Below, piece after piece: positions 12,005-20,747 of a stretch of DNA of 46,742 nucleotides. The notes below the pieces were generated by a model that did no database searches, was not told the DNA's origin, and saw only the letters and a list, made by a program, of their open reading frames with translations. The stretch is from Gelidibacter sp. (GTDB lineage Bacteria; Bacteroidota; Bacteroidia; Flavobacteriales; Flavobacteriaceae): NCBI GenBank assembly GCA_010906935.1, contig JAAFHC010000035.1, positions 1-46,742 of the forward strand, written 5' to 3'. The first letter of the stretch is position 1, and each line of letters starts with the position of its first letter. The position numbers were made by a program, and so were the translations under genes.

Positions 12005-12904
12005 ATGAACATACAATGGAACGGCGTAATGCCAGCGGTTACAACAAAATTTACTGATGAAGACACATTGGATTTGGTAAATTTTGAAATAAATATCAAC
12101 GCGCAATTAGCTGCAGACGTCAACGGAATTATTCTTGGAGGCACTTTAGGCGAAGCAAGCACGCTTACTGCGGATGAAAAAAAAATGCTGATCATAAAAA
12201 CGGTTGAAATTGTAAAAGGCAAAGTTCCGGTGATTATCAATATTGCAGAGCAATCAACCAATGGAGCCATTGAAGCGGTTCGCAAGGCTGAAGAATATGG
12301 GGCAAATGGATTGATGTTGTTGCCGCCGATGCGTTATAAAGCCGATGCCAGGGAAACGGTAACCTATTTTAAAAAAATTGCCAAAAGCACTTCGTTGCCA
12401 ATTATGATTTACAACAATCCGGTCGATTATGGCATTGAAGTTACTTTGGATATGTTTGAAGAATTGATGGAGTGTGAAAATATTCAGGCCGTAAAAGAAT
12501 CTACCCGCGATATTTCAAATGTGACGAGAATGAAAACGCGTTTTGGCGACCGTTTTAAAATTTTATGTGGTGTTGACACCTTGGCCTTAGAGAGTTTATT
12601 AATGGGCGCCGATGGTTGGGTCGCTGGTTTGGTTTGTGCTTTTCCGGTGGAAACTGTTGCCATTTATAAATTGGCAAAAGCAGGAAAAACAAAAGAAGCC
12701 ATCGCTATTTATCGTTGGTTTTTGCCCTTGTTGGAGTTGGATATAAACACTAAATTGGTACAAAATATTAAATTGGCAGAAGTGGCTACAGGAATAGGAA
12801 CCGAAAATGTTAGGGAACCGCGTTTGCCATTGGTAGGAGAAGAAAGAGTAAAAGTATTGGCAATTATTGAAAAAGCGTTGAAAAACAGACCCGTTATCAA
12901 TTAA
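12005..12904 (+). CDS. Pyrroline-4-hydroxy-2-carboxylate deaminase (DapA/NAL family)
   Basis: This 299-residue class I aldolase-fold protein belongs to the DapA / N-acetylneuraminate lyase family. The Schiff-base lysine is K164 in AVKEST, and Y136 in MIYNNP is the conserved proton-relay tyrosine. GGTLGEASTLTADEK is the substrate-loop block. Family membership alone cannot give the substrate. The neighbours (hydroxyproline epimerase, D-amino-acid dehydrogenase, semialdehyde dehydrogenase) indicate deamination of delta1-pyrroline-4-hydroxy-2-carboxylate to 2-oxoglutarate semialdehyde. A dihydrodipicolinate synthase is very unlikely here; a sialic acid lyase is less likely than the hydroxyproline role. 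It is the first gene of the operon. Confidence 0.87.
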   Translation: MNIQWNGVMPAVTTKFTDEDTLDLVNFEININAQLAADVNGIILGGTLGEASTLTADEKKMLIIKTVEIVKGKVPVIINIAEQSTNGAIEAVRKAEEYGANGLMLLPPMRYKADARETVTYFKKIAKSTSLPIMIYNNPVDYGIEVTLDMFEELMECENIQAVKESTRDISNVTRMKTRFGDRFKILCGVDTLALESLLMGADGWVAGLVCAFPVETVAIYKLAKAGKTKEAIAIYRWFLPLLELDINTKLVQNIKLAEVATGIGTENVREPRLPLVGEERVKVLAIIEKALKNRPVIN

Positions 12905-13011
12905 AACGACTCCAAGGCGGGAATTAATAAATGAAATTAAAAAATTGTTTTGAGGTGTTTTTGATTAACCTACTAATAATCTAAAATACCAAAATACTAA
13001 AAATACAGAAG

Positions 13012-14601
13012 ATGATAACAGGAAAAAATTACATTGGGAATTTGCTTTCATCAACAGGGAAAGTAACATTTAAAACATTCAATCCGTTAGCAAATAAGGA
13101 GAACGAAGTTGTTTTTTATGAAGCTTCTGGGGAAGAAATTGAGATGGCGGTTGAATTGGCTTCGGAAGCATTTAAATTATTCCGAAGTATTTCAGGAGTC
13201 AAGAAAAGCGAATTTTTAAATCAAATCGCCAATGAAATTGAATCGTTGGGTGACGAGCTGATAAAAACCTATTGTTCAGAATCTGGTTTGCCGGAAGGCA
13301 GGGCAATTGGTGAAAGAGGAAGAACCATTTTTCAATTGCGAACCTTTGCCAATTTGGTAAAAGAAGCCTCTTGGGTGGAAGCCACTATTGATACTGCCAA
13401 TCCATACCGACTCCCAATTCCGAAAGTTGACATTCGTAAAATGTTAATTCCAATAGGTCCAGTCGTTGTTTTTGGCGCGAGCAACTTTCCGCTAGCATAT
13501 TCTACCGCTGGTGGCGACACCGCTTCAGCTCTTGCTGCCGGTTGTCCGGTGATTGTAAAATCGCACCCAATGCATGCGGGAACAGGTGAACTGGTGGCAT
13601 CGGCAATAATAAAAGCTGCGGAAAAAACCGAAATGCCAAATGGCGTATTTTCAAATTTAAACAGCAGCGGCATTGAAGTTGGCGTTAAATTGGTGAAACA
13701 TCCGCAGGTGAAAGCTGTCGGTTTTACGGGAAGCATTGGCGGCGGAAGGGCTTTGTATAATATGGCTTCACAGCGCCCTGAACCCATTCCTGTTTTTGCG
13801 GAAATGGGAAGCGTAAATCCGGTGATTATTTTACCCAAAGCTGCAAAAAATGGAGGAAATGATTGGGCAATAATTTATGCGGGTTCTATTACTTTAAGTT
13901 CTGGACAATTTTGCACAAATCCCGGATTAATTTTAGGAATTAAAAATCCCGATTTAACGAATTTTATTCAGAAACTTTCAGAAGAAATAATCAAAATTGA
14001 ACCTAGTTGTATGTTGCATCCAAACATCATAGGAGCTTATGAAAGTAAAAAAGCCAAAATGCAAGAACAAAAAGGTTTACAAACTGTTGCAAGTTTTTCC
14101 AATGAAATTGCTACTAATTTTGGACGGCAAGCCATCACAACTGTTGAAGGAGCCACTTTTTTAGGAAACACCGCGTTGCATCAGGAAGTTTTTGGTCCAT
14201 TTTCAATGGTGGTTCAATGTGAAGATGCGCAACAATTAGAAGAGGTAATTGCGCATTTGGAAGGTCAGTTAACAGGAACGGTTTTGGCGGAAAACGGAGA
14301 GTTAAAAAAATATGAAAAGGTGATAAATGCACTTCAAAATAGGGTGGGGCGCATTATTTTTAACGGCGTTCCAACAGGTGTTGAGGTTTGTGCAGCGATG
14401 GTTCACGGCGGTCCTTATCCGGCGTCAACCGATAGCCGATTTACCGCGGTGGGAATCAATTCCATAAAACGTTGGGTTCGTCCGTTTAGTTTTCAAAGTT
14501 GGCCAGATGAATTATTACCTGATGAATTGAGAAATGAAAATCCGTTAGGGATTTCAAGAACAATTGACGGAAAAAGCACCATTGAACCTTTATCAAAATA
14601 A
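13012..14601 (+). CDS. 2-oxoglutarate semialdehyde dehydrogenase (aldehyde dehydrogenase, NADP+)
   Basis: This 529-residue aldehyde dehydrogenase has catalytic Cys301 in SSGQFCTNPG and Glu264 in FAEMGSVNP. The NAD(P)-binding part contains GPVVVFGASNFPLAYSTAGGD and FTGSIGGGRALY. The length and these blocks match the 2-oxoglutarate (2,5-dioxopentanoate) semialdehyde dehydrogenases found in hydroxyproline and pentose/uronate pathways. It would oxidise the deaminase product to 2-oxoglutarate, which enters the TCA cycle. It sits 107 bases after the deaminase gene and two bases before the epimerase gene. The role is assigned from family plus operon context. Confidence 0.92.
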   Translation: MITGKNYIGNLLSSTGKVTFKTFNPLANKENEVVFYEASGEEIEMAVELASEAFKLFRSISGVKKSEFLNQIANEIESLGDELIKTYCSESGLPEGRAIGERGRTIFQLRTFANLVKEASWVEATIDTANPYRLPIPKVDIRKMLIPIGPVVVFGASNFPLAYSTAGGDTASALAAGCPVIVKSHPMHAGTGELVASAIIKAAEKTEMPNGVFSNLNSSGIEVGVKLVKHPQVKAVGFTGSIGGGRALYNMASQRPEPIPVFAEMGSVNPVIILPKAAKNGGNDWAIIYAGSITLSSGQFCTNPGLILGIKNPDLTNFIQKLSEEIIKIEPSCMLHPNIIGAYESKKAKMQEQKGLQTVASFSNEIATNFGRQAITTVEGATFLGNTALHQEVFGPFSMVVQCEDAQQLEEVIAHLEGQLTGTVLAENGELKKYEKVINALQNRVGRIIFNGVPTGVEVCAAMVHGGPYPASTDSRFTAVGINSIKRWVRPFSFQSWPDELLPDELRNENPLGISRTIDGKSTIEPLSK

Positions 14602-14603
14602 TC

Positions 14604-15611
14604 ATGAGCAGAAAAACTTTTTTTTGCGTTGACGCCCACACTTGCGGAAACCCCGTTCGCGTAGTTGCCGGTGGTGGTCCAAATTTAAAGGGAGTTGATA
14701 TGAGCGAAAAGCGTCAACATTTTTTAAAGGAATTCGACTGGATTCGCAAAGGATTGATGTTTGAACCACGCGGACACGATATGATGAGCGGAAGCATTTT
14801 ATTTCCGCCGCATCACGAAGAAAATGATTTTTCAATTTTATTTATAGAAACTTCAGGCTGTTTGCCTATGTGCGGCCACGGAACAATTGGAACAGTAACC
14901 ATTGCCATTGAAGAAGGTTTGATAACCCCAAAAATTCCAGGCAAAATAAGGATGGAAGCGCCAGCCGGACTCGTACAAATTGAATACCAACAAACCGGTA
15001 AGAAAGTGGATTGGGTAAAATTAATCAACGTAAAATCGTATTTGGCAGCGGAAGGATTAACGGTTGAATGTCCTGAATTGGGCGAACTTTCTTTCGATGT
15101 TGCTTACGGTGGAAATTATTACGCCATTGTTGATCAACAAGAAAATTTTAGCGGCGTTCACAATTTTACAGCAAGTAAATTAATTCAATATTCTCAGGTT
15201 GTTCGTTCAAGAATAAATGAAAAATATCCCAATTTATTTGTGCATCCCGAAAATGAAACCATAAGAGATGTGAGTCATATCATGTGGACAGGAAATCCTA
15301 TTGATTCGATTTCCTCTGGAAGAAATGCTGTTTTTTATGGTGATAAAGCAATAGATCGCTCACCTTGCGGCACTGGAACATCGGCTCGAATGGCGCAATT
15401 GTATGCGAAAGGCAAACTGAAACCGGGAGACGAATATGTCCATGAAAGTATTATTGGCTCTAAATTTATTGGAAAAATAGTAGAAGAAACTATGTTGGAC
15501 GGAAAAAAAGCAATCATTCCCAGCATACAAGGCTGGGCAAAAGTGTACGGATACAATACCATTATTATTGATGATGACGATCCATATGCACACGGATTTC
15601 AAGTGTTGTAG
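14604..15611 (+). CDS. 4-hydroxyproline 2-epimerase
   Basis: This 335-residue member of the proline racemase superfamily interconverts trans-4-hydroxy-L-proline and cis-4-hydroxy-D-proline. Both catalytic cysteines are present: Cys90 in MCGHGTIG and Cys255 in DRSPCGTGTSARMA. This two-Cys pattern separates epimerases/racemases from the Thr-containing dehydratase branch. The N-terminus FFCVDAHTCGNPVRVVAGGGP is also characteristic of hydroxyproline epimerases. The gene follows the semialdehyde dehydrogenase by two bases, so coupling is likely. No N-terminal signal peptide is seen, so it acts on imported hydroxyproline in the cytoplasm. After its stop there is a palindromic repeat before the dehydrogenase gene. 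Confidence 0.94.
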   Translation: MSRKTFFCVDAHTCGNPVRVVAGGGPNLKGVDMSEKRQHFLKEFDWIRKGLMFEPRGHDMMSGSILFPPHHEENDFSILFIETSGCLPMCGHGTIGTVTIAIEEGLITPKIPGKIRMEAPAGLVQIEYQQTGKKVDWVKLINVKSYLAAEGLTVECPELGELSFDVAYGGNYYAIVDQQENFSGVHNFTASKLIQYSQVVRSRINEKYPNLFVHPENETIRDVSHIMWTGNPIDSISSGRNAVFYGDKAIDRSPCGTGTSARMAQLYAKGKLKPGDEYVHESIIGSKFIGKIVEETMLDGKKAIIPSIQGWAKVYGYNTIIIDDDDPYAHGFQVL

Positions 15612-15612
15612 A

Positions 15613-15630
15613 GACAGGTCACGACCTGTC
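15613..15630. repeat. GACAGGTC-AC-GACCTGTC palindromic dispersed repeat
   Basis: GACAGGTC (15613-15620) and GACCTGTC (15623-15630) are perfect 8-base arms with a two-base centre, between two genes of the same operon. A degenerate relative lies at about 28180-28199. I recall this type of element as dispersed in Bacteroidota genomes. It lies in an open frame that would falsely lengthen the next gene. Confidence 0.65.
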
Positions 15631-15663
15631 CGTACTGAAAAAAATAATCGAATAAACAATATT

Positions 15664-16902
15664 GTGAAAAAAGTAATTATCATCGGGGGTGGAATTGTTG
15701 GATTGTGTTCGGCTTATTATTTGGCAAAAGAGGGCGCTAAAGTAGCTGTTATTGACAAATCTGATATGTTGGACGGCTGTTCATACGGAAACGCGGGAAT
15801 GATTGTTCCCAGCCATATTATTCCTATGGCACAACCGGGCGTTATTCATCAGGGAATTAAATGGATGTTCAATGCAAAAAGTCCGTTTTACATAAAACCC
15901 GCTATAAGTGTGGATTTGTTGGCCTGGCTGATCCAGTTTTATAAGAATTCCAATCAAAATCATGTAGATAAATCAATGGTGCCTTTGCGAAATCTTTCTT
16001 TTTTCAGCAAAGAATTGTATCAGGAATTTGCAATTTTAAGCAAGGATTTTGGCTATGATGAAAAAGGACTTTTGAGGCTTTATAATACTGAAAAAGTTGG
16101 GGAGGAAGAAATAAAAATCGGAAAAATTGCTAAAGAATTGGGTATAGAAGTCGATTTTTTAAATCAGCGGGAAGTTAAGGAATTAGAAAAAGATATTAAT
16201 GTTGATGCATTGGGTGCTGTACATTATAAATCTGATGCGCATTTGTCTTCAAATCATTTTATGGCATTTTTAAAAGCTGAATTAAATAAAATGGGCGTGA
16301 AGATGATTTCTAATTGTCCCATTTTCGATTTTAGAGTTTCAGGAGGAAAAATTGATGAGGTATTGACCAAATTTGGAATTTTTAAAGCAGATGAGTTTGT
16401 GATAGCTGCAGGTTCTTGGAGCGTGGAAATTGCCCAAAAGCTTGGAGTTAAATTACATATTTTACCTGGTAAAGGTTATAGTTTTAATGTAGAAAATCTC
16501 TTATCAAAACCTACAATTCCATCTATTTTATGTGAGGGAAAAGTTGCCGTAACGCCTTTGGGAAATGAAGTTCGATTTGGCGGAACATTAGAAATCACCA
16601 ACAATAAAGATACTAAAATTAACATAAAACGATTGCAGGGAATTGTTGAAAAAGTGAATGAGTTTTATCCTGATATCAAAGTTGACCTTCCATATAAAGA
16701 AAAAGTTTGGCATGGTTTTAGGCCTTGCACACCAACCGGATTGCCAATTATAGAACAATCAAAGAAGTTTCAAAATTTAACCATTGCCACAGGTCATGCG
16801 ATGATGGGTTTGAGTTTGGCACCAGCTTCTGGCAAACTGGTTAGTGAATTGATATTGGGTAAAAAAACATCTGTAGATATTACCGAATTTAGGAGTTGTT
16901 AA
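15664..16902 (+). CDS. D-hydroxyproline dehydrogenase (FAD-dependent, DadA-like)
   Basis: This 412-residue FAD oxidoreductase of the DAO/DadA family starts with the dinucleotide-binding GGGIVGLCSAYYLAKEGAKVAVIDK. It ends with the family block FRPCTPTGLPII and GHAMMGLSLAPASGKLVSELI. In its operon it would oxidise cis-4-hydroxy-D-proline to delta1-pyrroline-4-hydroxy-2-carboxylate, probably delivering electrons to the respiratory chain. The start is GTG 15664, directly before the beta-strand of the FAD domain. The frame is open 32 codons further upstream, but that extension is translated repeat DNA (the palindrome at 15613), so I reject it. It is the last catabolic gene before the MarR gene. 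Confidence 0.9.
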   Translation: MKKVIIIGGGIVGLCSAYYLAKEGAKVAVIDKSDMLDGCSYGNAGMIVPSHIIPMAQPGVIHQGIKWMFNAKSPFYIKPAISVDLLAWLIQFYKNSNQNHVDKSMVPLRNLSFFSKELYQEFAILSKDFGYDEKGLLRLYNTEKVGEEEIKIGKIAKELGIEVDFLNQREVKELEKDINVDALGAVHYKSDAHLSSNHFMAFLKAELNKMGVKMISNCPIFDFRVSGGKIDEVLTKFGIFKADEFVIAAGSWSVEIAQKLGVKLHILPGKGYSFNVENLLSKPTIPSILCEGKVAVTPLGNEVRFGGTLEITNNKDTKINIKRLQGIVEKVNEFYPDIKVDLPYKEKVWHGFRPCTPTGLPIIEQSKKFQNLTIATGHAMMGLSLAPASGKLVSELILGKKTSVDITEFRSC

Positions 16903-16924: not shown

Positions 16925-17395
16925 ATGAATTCTATCGAAATTTTAATAAAACTCAGAAGAATTGTGCGTTCCATAAACTTGGAAAGCAAGCGTGTGGATA
17001 AAGAATTAGGCGTGAGTATTCCCCAATTATTATGCTTGCAATTTTTGGCGGAACAAGATGACTTTCGGGCAAATTCATCAAAATTAAAAAAATTTTTAAA
17101 TTTAAATGCCAGCACCATTACCGGGATTATTGCCAGACTAGAGAAAAAAAATCTGGTCGTAAAACTGCCCAAAGTTACCGATAAGCGAATCAATTTAATT
17201 TCTTTAACAGCTAAAGGAATGGCGCTTATCCAAAATGCGCCAATTACTTTTCAGCAAAAATTAAGTGGAAAATTGCAAGCGCTTCCGCCGGAAAAGCTTA
17301 AAACGATTATTGATGGCATGGATTTGTTAACTGAACTTATGGAAGTGGATGAAATTGATGCTTCACCCATTATTACTTCAGAAGAATTTATATAG
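16925..17395 (+). CDS. MarR family regulator
   Basis: This 156-residue winged-helix regulator has the MarR order of helices: an N-terminal dimerisation helix, a recognition region around SSKLKKFLNLNASTITGIIARLEKKNLV, and the wing KLPKVTDKRINLISLTAKG with the conserved DxR. Such proteins usually repress neighbouring transport or catabolic genes until a small ligand binds. I use ATG 16925, since the TTG at 16919 lies inside the -7 box. The 212-base gap to the bS21 gene holds palindromes, one of them inside a promoter, so control of the downstream operon is likely. Whether it also affects the hydroxyproline genes is unknown. Confidence 0.85.
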   Translation: MNSIEILIKLRRIVRSINLESKRVDKELGVSIPQLLCLQFLAEQDDFRANSSKLKKFLNLNASTITGIIARLEKKNLVVKLPKVTDKRINLISLTAKGMALIQNAPITFQQKLSGKLQALPPEKLKTIIDGMDLLTELMEVDEIDASPIITSEEFI

Positions 17396-17414: not shown

Positions 17415-17448
17415 ATGGTTTTTAACCATAAATAGTTTCTGTAGAAAA
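17415..17448. promoter_or_regulatory. Palindromes after marR: ATGGTT-TTT-AACCAT and TTTC-TGTA-GAAA
   Basis: ATGGTT/AACCAT arms lie at 17415-17429. GTTTCTGTAGAAAA at 17435-17448 shows the same GTTTC-N4-GAAA design as the stronger site at 17547. It is also followed by the identical TTTTGCATAAT sequence (17456-17466), so part of the control region appears to be duplicated. Confidence 0.5.
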
Positions 17449-17546
17449 TATGAATTTTGCATAATTTTTGTTTGAAATAATCGACATTAATTGCGTTAAA
17501 AGCGTATTTTTTGCTTGCTTATTGAATTATATTAATTAAATATTAA

Positions 17547-17577
17547 TAGTTTCCATAGAAACTAATTCGTATTTTTG
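17547..17577 (+). promoter_or_regulatory. Promoter of the bS21-symporter operon with overlapping operator
   Basis: TAGTTTC-CATA-GAAACTA (17547-17564) is a perfect inverted repeat with 7-base arms. It lies directly upstream of TATTTTTG (17570-17577), a full match to the TAnnTTTG -7 element, so a protein bound there would cover the -33/-7 interval. Transcription would start near 17583, giving a leader of about 25 bases before the ATG at 17608. The adjacent MarR protein is the natural candidate ligand. Confidence 0.6.
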
Positions 17578-17607
17578 CATAATAACCAATAAATTAAAAC
17601 AAGAAAT

Positions 17608-17802
17608 ATGCTCATTATACAAGTAAAGGAAGGCGAAAACATTGACAGAGCGCTAAAGAGATACAAACAAAAAACAAGAAGAACAAAACTGATCAATAAT
17701 TTAAGAGACCAAAAACAATTTATCAAAAAATCGGTTAAAAACAGAAAGAAAAAAGGAAAAGCGATTTACGTACAGAATTTAAGAAATCAAGAAGAGAAAT
17801 AG
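17608..17802 (+). CDS. rpsU: bS21-like ribosomal protein (divergent paralogue?)
   Basis: This 64-residue, very basic protein has the bS21 signature at its start (MLII.VKEGENIDRALKRYK) and end (YVQNLRNQEE), and the family's usual length for Bacteroidota. bS21 binds the 30S platform near the 3' end of 16S rRNA. The middle differs from the usual Bacteroidota form: where most have a KFDKTGT..QLR segment, this has KTRRTKLINNLR, and the helix after it is unusually lysine-rich (KKSVKNRKKKGKA). It heads an operon with a GNAT enzyme, a Na+/solute symporter and a racemase, starting two bases before the next gene. There is no strong Shine-Dalgarno upstream. It could be a second, regulated bS21 or the only one in the genome. 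Confidence 0.85.
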   Translation: MLIIQVKEGENIDRALKRYKQKTRRTKLINNLRDQKQFIKKSVKNRKKKGKAIYVQNLRNQEEK

Positions 17803-17804
17803 AT

Positions 17805-18260
17805 ATGGAAACTTTTAAAATTTACAACAAAATCACAGAACCTTCAGCAGCAGAAAAGGAGGAAGTTATTTCATTTTTATATCAGCATTTGCAGGAATAC
17901 GGCGATAAAAAGGAAGACATTGGCAAATGTTTCGATTTCGCCATTAAGGATTCAGTAGAAGAACTTGGCGGATTTGTTTTGATTATTCTGGAAAACGATG
18001 AAATTCAAGGAGTTACAATAGTGAACAAAACCGGAATGGCAGGTTATATTCCTGAAAACATTCTTGTATACATTGCTGTTCACGAAAATGCCAGAGGCAA
18101 AGGCTACGGTAAAAAACTTATGAACAAAGCCATTGAATTGGCCGATGGAGATATCGCTTTGCACGTAGAACCTAACAATCCGGCAAAATTTTTATATGAA
18201 AAATTAGGTTTTGAAAACAAATACAAATACTTAGAAATGCGACTTAAGAAACAAAAATAA
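17805..18260 (+). CDS. GNAT N-acetyltransferase
   Basis: This 151-residue GNAT domain protein would transfer an acetyl group from acetyl-CoA to an amine. The acetyl-CoA loop is in YIAVHENARGKGYGKKLMNKA (R-G-K-G-Y-G pattern, about residues 85-105). The C-terminal NPAKFLYEKLGFE is the usual GNAT end. The substrate cannot be told. It begins two bases after the bS21-like gene and ends five bases before the symporter gene, so it is an integral part of the operon. A protein N-terminus, a small amine or an amino acid brought in by the symporter are all possible. Confidence 0.88.
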   Translation: METFKIYNKITEPSAAEKEEVISFLYQHLQEYGDKKEDIGKCFDFAIKDSVEELGGFVLIILENDEIQGVTIVNKTGMAGYIPENILVYIAVHENARGKGYGKKLMNKAIELADGDIALHVEPNNPAKFLYEKLGFENKYKYLEMRLKKQK

Positions 18261-18265
18261 CAAAT

Positions 18266-19669
18266 ATGGCTATTTTAGACATTGTTGTTTTTGTTGTTTA
18301 CATGGTCTTAGTTTTAGGAATTGGGTTTTATTTTTTTAATAAAAACAAAACCGTTAAGGACTATTACATTGGTGGAGGTGAAATGAGTAGTTTGCATGTT
18401 GGGCTTTCCGTTGTTGCAACAGATGTAGGCGGTGGGTTTTCTATTGGATTGGGTGGACTTGGTTTTGTTATGGGAATATCCGGTTCCTGGATGCTATTTA
18501 CCGGACTTATTGGCGCTTGGTTAAGCGCCGTTTTTTTGATTCCAAAGGTTGTAAAGCTTGGCAATTTGCATGGTTTTTTAACATTTCCAGAATTTTTGAA
18601 GCACAGTTACGGAACAACAGTAGCGCTGGTTGCAGGTATTATTTCCTTTATTGGCTATTTAGGTTTTACTTCATCTCAATTTCTTGCCGGAGCGAAGCTG
18701 GCTGTGGGCACATTTCCTTCTCTTGACTTAAATGAAGCTTTGCTGATAATGGGAGGTATAGCATTAGTTTATACTGCTTTTGGCGGAATGAAAGCTGTAA
18801 TTTACACAGACACTTTTCAGTGGTTAATTTTAATGGGAGGATTAATTTTTGTTGGAATCCCTATTGCCTACAACTACCTTGGAGGTTATGAAGCGATTGT
18901 TGAAGTGCTTCCTGACAAATACTTTTCATTACAAAATGTTTCTTGGGTTCAAATTGTAAATTGGTTTGTAATTATTGTACCAATTTGGTTTGTTGGAATG
19001 ACACTTTATCAAAGAATTTATGCGTGTAAAGATGAAAAGACAGCAAAGAAAGCATGGTTTATCGCAGGGCTTTTTGAATATCCCACAATGGCATTTATGG
19101 GTGTAATTCTTGGATTATTTGCAAGAGTTGCGGCTGCAAAAGGTATTTTTATTTCCGACGGATTTGAAAGTGAAATTGGCATGGATCCTGAAATGGGCAT
19201 GCCTTTGCTTTTAAAACATGTCTTGCCCGTTGGTTTAATGGGATTGATGTTATCAGCTTATTTTTCTGCAATAATGTCAACAGCCGATAGCTGTTTACTT
19301 GCAGCTTCCGGTAATTTTGTAACGGATATATTAGGGCTTAAAAACCTTAATAAAAAAACGATAAGAATTTCTCAAATTATCACCTTCTTTGTTGGAGGTG
19401 CAGCAATAATAATCGCCACTACTATGCAAAGTGTACTGGAATTGATGTTGCTATCCTATTCATTTATGGTTTCGGGATTATTGGTACCGGTGTTGGGAAT
19501 TCTATTATCAAAAAACAGAAAACCTTTAGCGGCTTTATATGCTATGCTTGTAGGAGGATCTTCTACGTTAATCTTAACTTTTCTTGAAATAAAAATTCCT
19601 TTTGGTTTCGACCCAATATTAATTGGAATTTCACTATCTTCCATCGTCTATTTAACAATTAAAAAATAA
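18266..19669 (+). CDS. Sodium:solute symporter (SSS family)
   Basis: This 467-residue inner-membrane Na+-coupled importer of the SSS family has about 13 hydrophobic segments. The opening block VKDYYIGGGEMSSLHVGLSVVATDVGGG is the family's typical first two helices, and SAYFSAIMSTADSCLLAASGNF is the Na+-site helix region. Within the SSS family it is nearer to proline/amino-acid or general organic-solute carriers than to the sugar branch represented at 31661-33313. Flanked by a racemase and followed by aminopeptidase P, an amino acid is the likely cargo (proline, hydroxyproline or ornithine are guesses). It lies five bases after the GNAT gene and four bases before the racemase. Confidence 0.9.
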   Translation: MAILDIVVFVVYMVLVLGIGFYFFNKNKTVKDYYIGGGEMSSLHVGLSVVATDVGGGFSIGLGGLGFVMGISGSWMLFTGLIGAWLSAVFLIPKVVKLGNLHGFLTFPEFLKHSYGTTVALVAGIISFIGYLGFTSSQFLAGAKLAVGTFPSLDLNEALLIMGGIALVYTAFGGMKAVIYTDTFQWLILMGGLIFVGIPIAYNYLGGYEAIVEVLPDKYFSLQNVSWVQIVNWFVIIVPIWFVGMTLYQRIYACKDEKTAKKAWFIAGLFEYPTMAFMGVILGLFARVAAAKGIFISDGFESEIGMDPEMGMPLLLKHVLPVGLMGLMLSAYFSAIMSTADSCLLAASGNFVTDILGLKNLNKKTIRISQIITFFVGGAAIIIATTMQSVLELMLLSYSFMVSGLLVPVLGILLSKNRKPLAALYAMLVGGSSTLILTFLEIKIPFGFDPILIGISLSSIVYLTIKK

Positions 19670-19673
19670 CGAA

Positions 19674-20747
19674 ATGGCATTTATAACACTTAATAAGAAA
19701 TCTTTAGCTCATAATTATTCATTTTTACAATCGTTATTTAAAAGGCATGATAAAGAATGGGCGCCTGTATTGAAGATGCTTTGCGGAAATAAAACCTTTC
19801 TGGAATATGTTTTATCTTTAGGTGATGAACAAGTTTGTGATGCCCGATTGACAAATTTAAAAAAAATTAAAGCCATAAACCCAAACAAAGAAACCATTTA
19901 CATAAAACCTCCTGCAAAGAGAAGCTTAGCCAATGTGGTAAAATACGCCGATGTTAGTTTTAATACAGAATTAACAACCATGAAATGGTTATCTTTAGAA
20001 GCCGTTAAACAAGAAAAAGTTCACCGAATTATAATTATGATTGAATTGGGCGATCTGCGTGAAGGCATTATGGGTGAGTATTTAATGGAATTTTACAAAA
20101 AAATATTTGAACTGCCCAATATTCAAGTGGCTGGAATTGGTGCAAATCTCAATTGTTTAAGTGGCGTAATGCCCAGCAAAGACAAACTCATTCAACTGAG
20201 TTTGTATGAGCAATTGATTGAAGCAAAGTTCGGCAAAAAAATAGATTATGTTTCGGGAGGATCTTCTGTGATGATACCACTTTTAATGAAAAAGCAAATT
20301 CCCAAAGGCGTAAATCATTTTAGAATTGGGGAAACCTTGTTTTTTGGCGTTGATTTGTTTACCAATAAAACAATTCCTAAAATGAAGAATGATATTTTTT
20401 TGCTTTATGCTGAAATCATTGAAATTACGGAAAAACCTATTGTTCCTTACGGTTATTTGGAGGAAAATCCATCAGGAGAAACCTTGGAGATTGACCCCGA
20501 GGATTACGGAAAAAACCATAGTCGAGGAATTTTGGACATAGGGCTTTTGGATATTTCCAAAACAGAATTTATTATGCCTGTTGATGAAAATATTTCTTTT
20601 ATTGGCGCAAGCTCTGATATGTTGGTAGTGGATTTAAGTAAAACCACAAAAAAATATAAAGTCGGTGATTTGGTTTCATTTAAAATGAAATATATGGGCG
20701 CGTTGCGCATCATGAATTCTGAATATATTGAAAAGAAACTTGTTTAA
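19674..20747 (+). CDS. PLP-dependent amino-acid racemase (ornithine racemase/YhfX-like)
   Basis: This 357-residue protein has a fold-III PLP barrel of the alanine racemase N-domain type. The PLP lysine is in PVLKMLCGN near residue 34. The blocks GIGANLNCLSGVMPSKDK, YVSGGSSVMIPLL and FRIGETLFFG are characteristic of the ornithine racemase / YhfX subgroup rather than of biosynthetic Alr. It would interconvert L and D forms of an amino acid, possibly one carried by the adjoining symporter. It is the last gene of the tight bS21-GNAT-symporter set; the next gene is 133 bases away. The substrate is unproven. Confidence 0.82.
   Translation: MAFITLNKKSLAHNYSFLQSLFKRHDKEWAPVLKMLCGNKTFLEYVLSLGDEQVCDARLTNLKKIKAINPNKETIYIKPPAKRSLANVVKYADVSFNTELTTMKWLSLEAVKQEKVHRIIIMIELGDLREGIMGEYLMEFYKKIFELPNIQVAGIGANLNCLSGVMPSKDKLIQLSLYEQLIEAKFGKKIDYVSGGSSVMIPLLMKKQIPKGVNHFRIGETLFFGVDLFTNKTIPKMKNDIFLLYAEIIEITEKPIVPYGYLEENPSGETLEIDPEDYGKNHSRGILDIGLLDISKTEFIMPVDENISFIGASSDMLVVDLSKTTKKYKVGDLVSFKMKYMGALRIMNSEYIEKKLV

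Follow-up and report, generated by a model that had tools for sequence, protein, structure and literature searches.

Comparative genomics of a second bS21 gene in the Flavobacteriaceae, preceded in Lutibacter by an operator-like palindrome

Background

Why should a gene for a ribosomal protein stand at the head of what looks like an amino-acid uptake operon? The question is raised by a stretch of 46,742 nucleotides (GenBank assembly GCA_010906935.1, contig JAAFHC010000035.1; hereafter the window), in which a gene for a divergent bS21, rpsU2 (17608..17802, + strand), is the first of four closely spaced genes. An initial annotation, made from the sequence alone, had proposed that the cell may produce a ribosome variant when a given amino acid is available or, alternatively, that this is simply the only rpsU, moved into a new operon. 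Specialised bacterial ribosomes are an open question, and the bS21 of the Bacteroidota is among the few ribosomal proteins with a worked-out effect on mRNA choice, in a genetically tractable relative. According to the available part of McNutt et al. 2023 (PMC9976891), rpsU of Flavobacterium johnsoniae carries an extended Shine-Dalgarno (SD) sequence that is preferred by ribosomes lacking bS21, and the C-terminal part of the protein touches the 3' tail of 16S rRNA, Tyr54 stacking on A1534.

Results

A second, conserved bS21 gene

The 64-residue product of rpsU2, bS21B, is a member of the bS21 family, as it passes the curated cut-offs of both Pfam PF01165 (51.4 bits, cut-off 27, model positions 2-53 of 55) and NCBIfam TIGR00030 (45.1 bits, cut-off 28.95, model positions 2-51 of 58). 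A search with PF01165 of the whole genome (a 3.3 Mb draft in 296 contigs, estimated to be 95% complete) recovered two places above the cut-off: rpsU2 on contig C29, and an ordinary rpsU (C159:26694) that is followed by a tyrosine recombinase gene (xerC) and then by hpf, the latter two named from their translations. The idea of a single, relocated rpsU is thereby refuted, and the other copy was found where the initial annotation had advised to look for it, near a tyrosine recombinase gene. An artefact of assembly or contamination was also ruled out, since the locus is present in 24 Lutibacter genomes, including the named strains L. oceani 325-5, L. flavus DSM 27993, L. litoralis JCM 13034 and L. 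maritimus DSM 24450.

The Lutibacter sample comprised 38 genomes, the window genome included, and at least two rpsU genes were recovered from 23 of these; one further genome (G015, 62% complete) yielded the paralogue alone, 1.9 kb before the racemase gene, which brings the total for bS21B to 24/38. The racemase gene that closes the operon occurs in the same 24 genomes, and neither gene was found in the other 14. Outside Lutibacter, where 52 genera of the Flavobacteriaceae were represented by one genome each, 25 had at least two rpsU above the cut-off and one (G059, 88% complete) had the second type alone, so that bS21B is present in 26/52; additional rpsU appeared only as sub-threshold scraps in G064 and G078. 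Two rpsU were found in none of 59 genomes from other families of the order, and a phylum-wide sample gave at least two matches (not sorted by class) in 10 of 48 family members and in 7 of 344 others. These counts show a second, conserved class of bS21 that is widespread in the Flavobacteriaceae. No description of such a class in this family was found in the titles and abstract openings searched, which covered few subscription papers or preprints, and the list of multi-copy bS21 in the available part of PMC9976891 names only phyla other than Bacteroidota.

Within Lutibacter the median ratio of nonsynonymous to synonymous substitution rates (dN/dS) was 0.127 for bS21B (from 142 of 253 pairs) as compared with 0.085 for the ordinary protein, bS21A (from 150 of 171 pairs), and bS21B is under purifying selection. 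Three genomes carry two second-type genes beside the ordinary one (L157 and L158 in G046, L161 and L162 in G052, L173 and L175 in G067); L157, L158 and L161 combine Lys24 with His54 and possibly constitute a third class.

Loss of the Shine-Dalgarno sequence

Pairing energies were calculated for the 25 bases before each start and the 16S tail of sister genera, which was used because the tail pattern, matched in 6 of 11 genomes, was matched in 0 of 4 Lutibacter genomes. The bS21 rows represent 126 distinct combinations of protein and upstream region that were found by motif (the motif missed L006 and L011, both with Asp24 and a strong SD), and 13 order-level rows stand outside the comparison. 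The 60 ordinary copies of the family paired at -16.9 to -21.6 kcal/mol, a strength that is partly by construction as they were picked at below -15, and the 53 second copies reached -6.8 kcal/mol at strongest, with a median of -2.0. Even so, the copies of the family form two groups with nothing between them, and the grouping matches the presence of a neighbouring xerC in all but L066, which has the SD and in which no xerC was seen. With -2.3 kcal/mol, rpsU2 of the window lies well short of the value of about -13 that marks an extended SD. A later set contained 19 ordinary-type and zero second-type copies (from 20 stretches, L357 being without protein; G040 and G089 are not included), and 17 of the 19 had a strong SD. 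The rule that every ordinary copy has a strong SD was tried and rejected, as it is broken by the small single-copy genomes G041 (-2.2) and G088 (-9.9). By predicted pairing, then, bS21B is shown to be freed from the SD-based autoregulatory loop of the ordinary rpsU.

A class-wide charge change at residue 24

The classes as set by SD alone (53 second and 60 ordinary copies, which are rows related by descent and not independent events) also differ in sequence. Residue 24 is basic in 53/53 second copies (Arg in 50, Lys in 3) and in 0/60 ordinary ones, where it is Asp, Val, Thr or Ile; it is Asp in all 19 ordinary-type copies of the later set. Phe23 occurs in 60/60 ordinary versus 1/53 second copies and Arg35 in 59/60 versus 4/53. 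An alignment of 26 second copies, from which nine divergent ones were left out (L157, L158, L161, L162, L168, L173, L175, L177 and L185), contains 16 invariant positions, and Arg24 alone among these is foreign to the ordinary class. Tyr54 was retained in 60/60 ordinary and 50/53 second copies (His in the other 3). The window copy has both Arg24 and Tyr54, the latter being the residue by which a bS21 that hides the anti-Shine-Dalgarno (anti-SD) sequence is recognised in the Bacteroidia, and we infer that bS21B likewise hides the 3' tail of 16S rRNA.

The rpsU2 operon of Lutibacter and its operator-like site

In the window rpsU2 is followed, on the same strand, by genes encoding a GNAT-family N-acetyltransferase (17805..18260, PF00583), a sodium:solute symporter (SSF, 18266..19669, PF00474, 145 bits) and a pyridoxal-phosphate (PLP) racemase of the Ala_racemase_N family (19674..20747). 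The open reading frame coordinates bear out the tight spacing noted in the initial annotation, the gaps being 2, 5 and 4 bases, and the same gene order recurs in relatives. The nearest NCBIfam model of the racemase is that of ornithine racemase Orr (NF040742); the score of 312 bits is below the cut-off of 480, and the protein is therefore a candidate Orr-like racemase only (Orr-like racemases of relatives score 309.5 and 312 bits against the same cut-off). Sequence searches of the PDB returned no match for the acetyltransferase or the racemase (thresholds 0.001 and 1e-5).

The palindrome that had been noticed at the promoter, next to a MarR gene, was recovered at 17547..17564 (strandless, TAGTTTCCATAGAAACTA). 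It is perfect in the window (TAGTTTC-CATA-GAAACTA) and lies just upstream of TATTTTTG (17570..17577, + strand), a candidate Bacteroidota -7 promoter element that fits the consensus TTGNTANNTTTG quoted in the available part of PMC3587595. A weaker, distal copy with 1 mismatch was found by genome pattern search at 17433..17450 (strandless). The adjoining gene (16925..17395, + strand; PF01047, 46.9 bits versus 24.6) encodes a MarR-family regulator, the candidate repressor of the operon. The palindrome is rare: with at most one mismatch it occurs at three places in the draft genome, two of which are those upstream of rpsU2 (17433 and 17547) and the third of which is inside an open reading frame. 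At up to two mismatches it is not enriched in the draft genome (22 places versus 44 for a control pattern) and therefore no wider regulon is apparent.

The proximal palindrome was kept in all 24 Lutibacter genomes with rpsU2 (17 perfect, 4 with one mismatch, 3 with two), with its start 51 to 62 bases upstream of the start codon. Together with the trailing TATTT run it forms a conserved island in these genomes while the rest of the leader drifts; TATTT adjoins the site in nearly all regions and the full TAnnTTTG is present in 13/24. Sixteen of the 24 regions also have the distal copy (at most three mismatches), 167 to 176 bases upstream of the start codon. The MarR gene (E <= 1e-40) occurs in 23 of the 24 genomes with rpsU2 versus 0 of the 14 without it. 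An adjacent MarR-family gene and a conserved promoter palindrome are the sequence marks of a MarR-repressed operon, and the regulator probably binds the palindrome.

Transcription from rpsU2 through to the racemase gene is a candidate arrangement only, given the terminator-like stems within: a scan found 6 terminator-like sites versus 2.1 expected, and 5 of these are within the operon or MarR genes, in the stretch from MarR to the racemase. The best such site, a strong stem with a T run, lies inside the symporter gene (18511..18530). A scan for E. coli-type promoters gave 19 sites versus 17.3 expected and was uninformative. Directly upstream of the MarR gene (12005-16902) are four genes of hydroxyproline type, encoding a DHDPS family protein, an aldehyde dehydrogenase, a 4-hydroxyproline epimerase (594 bits versus a cut-off of 376) and a D-amino-acid-dehydrogenase-like protein, which we read jointly as a putative hydroxyproline breakdown pathway; no copy of the palindrome with up to three mismatches precedes these genes. 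The ten scanned genes of the window are metabolic, regulatory or bS21, which does not amount to a prophage setting.

Genomic neighbourhoods across the family

The cargo of the operon varies within Lutibacter: the symporter is missing in some genomes (e.g. L124, L128), and M20 and Alr genes are added in others. In L. flavus DSM 27993 (G032, L138:299-10817) argB, argD, argC and argJ, each passing a model cut-off, are flanked by Alr and the Orr-like racemase. The same order is seen in L. maritimus DSM 24450 (G035, L143:6386-16913), where argJ and the racemase were scored and the remaining three arg genes were assigned from like lengths and N-termini. The presence of arg genes inside the rpsU2 operon of two type strains points to ornithine, and their combination with two PLP racemase genes suggests a module for ornithine, perhaps for its D form.

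In 22 of the 26 other genera rpsU2 precedes a DUF2797-GH3 gene pair, and 16 of the 22 also have an AsmA gene upstream (the exceptions to the DUF2797-GH3 place are G046, G052, G070 and G074). By gene order this shared place is one ancient chromosomal locus of rpsU2. The order AsmA-rpoD2-rpsU2-GNAT-symporter-M20-Alr-racemase-DUF2797-GH3 of L146 (G065) looks like an ancestral union, and given this union and the common locus, the Lutibacter operon appears to be that cassette in a new location, and the lone rpsU2 copies appear to be remnants. Just before one such lone copy (L166, G056) is a 15-residue scrap that resembles the RpoD2 C-terminus (12/15 identical, E 0.003). The GNAT gene adjoins rpsU2 in 5 of the 26 other genera too. 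The named neighbours of rpsU2 in relatives are housekeeping or metabolic genes, part of the unnamed ones having been scanned. Six genera have a gene for a small membrane protein next to rpsU2 (L163, L166, L182, L190, L192, L196); the protein of L163 is LysE-like at 23.4 bits, below the Pfam cut-off of 25.6, and the other five match it, which is another hint of amino-acid transport.

An RpoD-type gene adjoins rpsU2 in 9 of the 26 genera (L146, L159, L170, L180, L187, L192, L194, L185 and L158), upstream in 8 and downstream in G046, and each of the nine genomes has two or three RpoD-type genes in all. A second RpoD as a constant marker of bS21B was ruled out, as an extra RpoD also occurs in genomes with one rpsU above the cut-off (G001, G038, G048, G049, G055, G063, G064, G069, G076, G078, G086, G089); a second RpoD, its promoter unknown, has been recorded for Dokdonia (PMC3587595, available part). 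Among 20 aligned upstream regions of rpsU2 from outside Lutibacter no common element could be made out, and perfect inverted repeats of at least 7 were present in three of them.

Relation to phage-encoded bS21

Two viral scans supplied 47 phage rows: 80 loci (32 distinct proteins) kept out of at least 424 relatives of a bS21B query, and 24 loci, 22 of them used, from an ordinary-class query, which added 15 proteins. Among the matches listed, 46 had enough sequence upstream, and in these no SD was below -13, the strongest being -12.0. Phage bS21 proteins have been proposed to replace host bS21. The available text of PMC9723584 describes significant divergence of phage bS21 at Arg21, Phe23, Asp25 and Thr28 with an aromatic residue 54 kept; the stretch altered in them is the same that is altered in bS21B. 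One phage copy reads KVRRTKQINKLREGKQF versus KTRRTKLINNLRDQKQF in the window, and three uncultured viral contigs (L235, L243, L247) carry the segment VRRTKQ[IL]N[KQ]LRE..KQ, which closely resembles TRRTKLINNLRDQKQ of the window. A joint tree put bS21A, the order-level copies and 2 phage rows opposite bS21B and 45/47 phage rows (support 100/96), a weak split in view of the 64 columns, long branches, unsettled bootstrap and query bias.

Discussion

What, then, does a bS21 gene do in such an operon? Most likely bS21B is an alternative bS21 that is switched at the level of transcription and takes no part in the autoregulatory loop. The MarR repressor would keep the operon off until a ligand arrives, perhaps ornithine or a related amino acid, and the production of bS21B would then not depend on the loop in which the ordinary rpsU is translated by bS21-free ribosomes. 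bS21B would take the place of bS21A in 30S subunits and, with Tyr54 kept, still conceal the anti-SD; we propose that the output of bS21A would consequently drop, making the replacement self-reinforcing, and that the changed segment 22-35 would shift initiation on some mRNAs without SD. To the explanation as a whole, in which a switched bS21B replaces bS21A in the 30S subunit and alters initiation, we give an even chance. Of the variant linked to an amino acid that the initial annotation had envisaged, the conserved class and the operator-like palindrome stand, and the restriction to this operon does not; likewise, amino-acid uptake is one of several contexts, bS21B also occurring alone or beside a second rpoD, and the cargo suggests ornithine, not general uptake.

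Several observations weigh against this explanation. The entry of bS21B into ribosomes and its effect on mRNA choice are deductions from sequence. The C-terminal positions 47 and 53 are also changed in second copies, so that the hiding of the anti-SD could be weaker. The MarR gene is on a different contig from rpsU2 in G002 and G003 and is split into two frames in G027, for which reason its role as repressor is not proven, and the palindrome core GTTTCTNNAGAAAC occurs at 0 to 4 other places per genome, and 9 of the 14 genomes that lack rpsU2 have it too. Many genera have bS21B by itself or as part of a different operon, and the link to amino-acid sensing is therefore not general. Finally, the rate of evolution is somewhat higher for bS21B than for bS21A, as would also be expected of a backup copy under relaxed constraint.

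That last point belongs to the alternative that bS21B is a functionally equivalent backup for changed demand or conditions, the loss of the SD merely freeing it from autoregulation and leaving mRNA choice unaffected. Of the 16 positions that do not vary among the aligned bS21B, 15 show no or almost no variation in bS21A, as does Tyr54; 14/38 Lutibacter genomes and half of the genera sampled can do without the gene, and its dN/dS is slightly above that of bS21A; against this, the charge class of residue 24 was changed in 53/53 copies across genera. A class-wide substitution together with an operator-like site of its own is more than a plain backup would need, and we regard this alternative as rather unlikely. 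A bolder version of the switch, in which bS21B fills bS21-free ribosomes, silences the ordinary rpsU and flips initiation preference as a host-encoded takeover, with nine genera exchanging transcription and translation specificity together through the paired RpoD2 and Lutibacter tying the flip to ornithine-type amino acids via MarR, seems unlikely as well.

The resemblance to phage proteins raises the further possibility that bS21B takes part in a contest with phages, either as a captured phage bS21 or as a host version that keeps ribosomes going when a phage replaces or degrades bS21A. The placement of 45 phage rows with bS21B, the altered segment and the equal lack of a strong SD in phage copies speak for it, but the tree is as weak as described, the phage sample was mostly drawn with a bS21B query, and rpsU2 occupies one syntenic chromosomal place in 22/26 genera among named neighbours that are housekeeping or metabolic, which makes such an origin or role quite improbable. 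Lastly, bS21B could work away from the ribosome, as a small basic protein that binds RNA and regulates its own operon, for which the bS21 reported in the OLE ribonucleoprotein complex of Halalkalibacterium (PMC12054373, available part) provides a precedent; as its conserved positions are shared with bS21A, the anti-SD contact Tyr54 included, we consider this very improbable.

If the switch by bS21B is true, the cell might have a means of altering the kind of ribosome that it makes. Being outside the loop, with one class-wide charge change and its own operator-like site, bS21B offers a clean test by exchange with bS21A, and the overlap with the segment altered in phages connects the ways in which host and phage use this site of the ribosome.

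Known systems provide partial parallels. E. coli has an rpsU-dnaG-rpoD operon, and bS21B resembles this arrangement in that its gene stands beside an RpoD-type sigma gene in 9/26 genera; it differs in pairing paralogues of both genes, with rpoD first in 8/9 and no dnaG seen between, and rpsU2 of the window is without an rpoD neighbour. The same operon is named for Francisella in the available part of PMC9578407, which also reports that more than one bS21 homologue of Francisella tularensis is present in ribosomes and that the loss of one alters the proteome. Several bS21 genes per genome are thus common to both cases, whereas Francisella belongs to another phylum and its bS21 C-terminal region is unlike the F. 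johnsoniae type. With phage-encoded bS21, as far as described in the available parts of PMC9723584 and PMC6375957, bS21B shares the lack of a strong SD, the aromatic residue 54 and divergence in the same N-terminal segment, and it differs in being chromosomal, syntenic across genera and located in metabolic or sigma-factor neighbourhoods. A further counterpart is the bS21 of F. johnsoniae (rpsU; PDB 7jil chain z; PMC9976891, available part), which is alike in family, length and Tyr54, so that the same phylum-specific anti-SD pocket is expected; the ordinary rpsU is autoregulated and bears an extended SD, whereas bS21B is without the SD, has Arg24 instead of Asp24 and is preceded by a different promoter.

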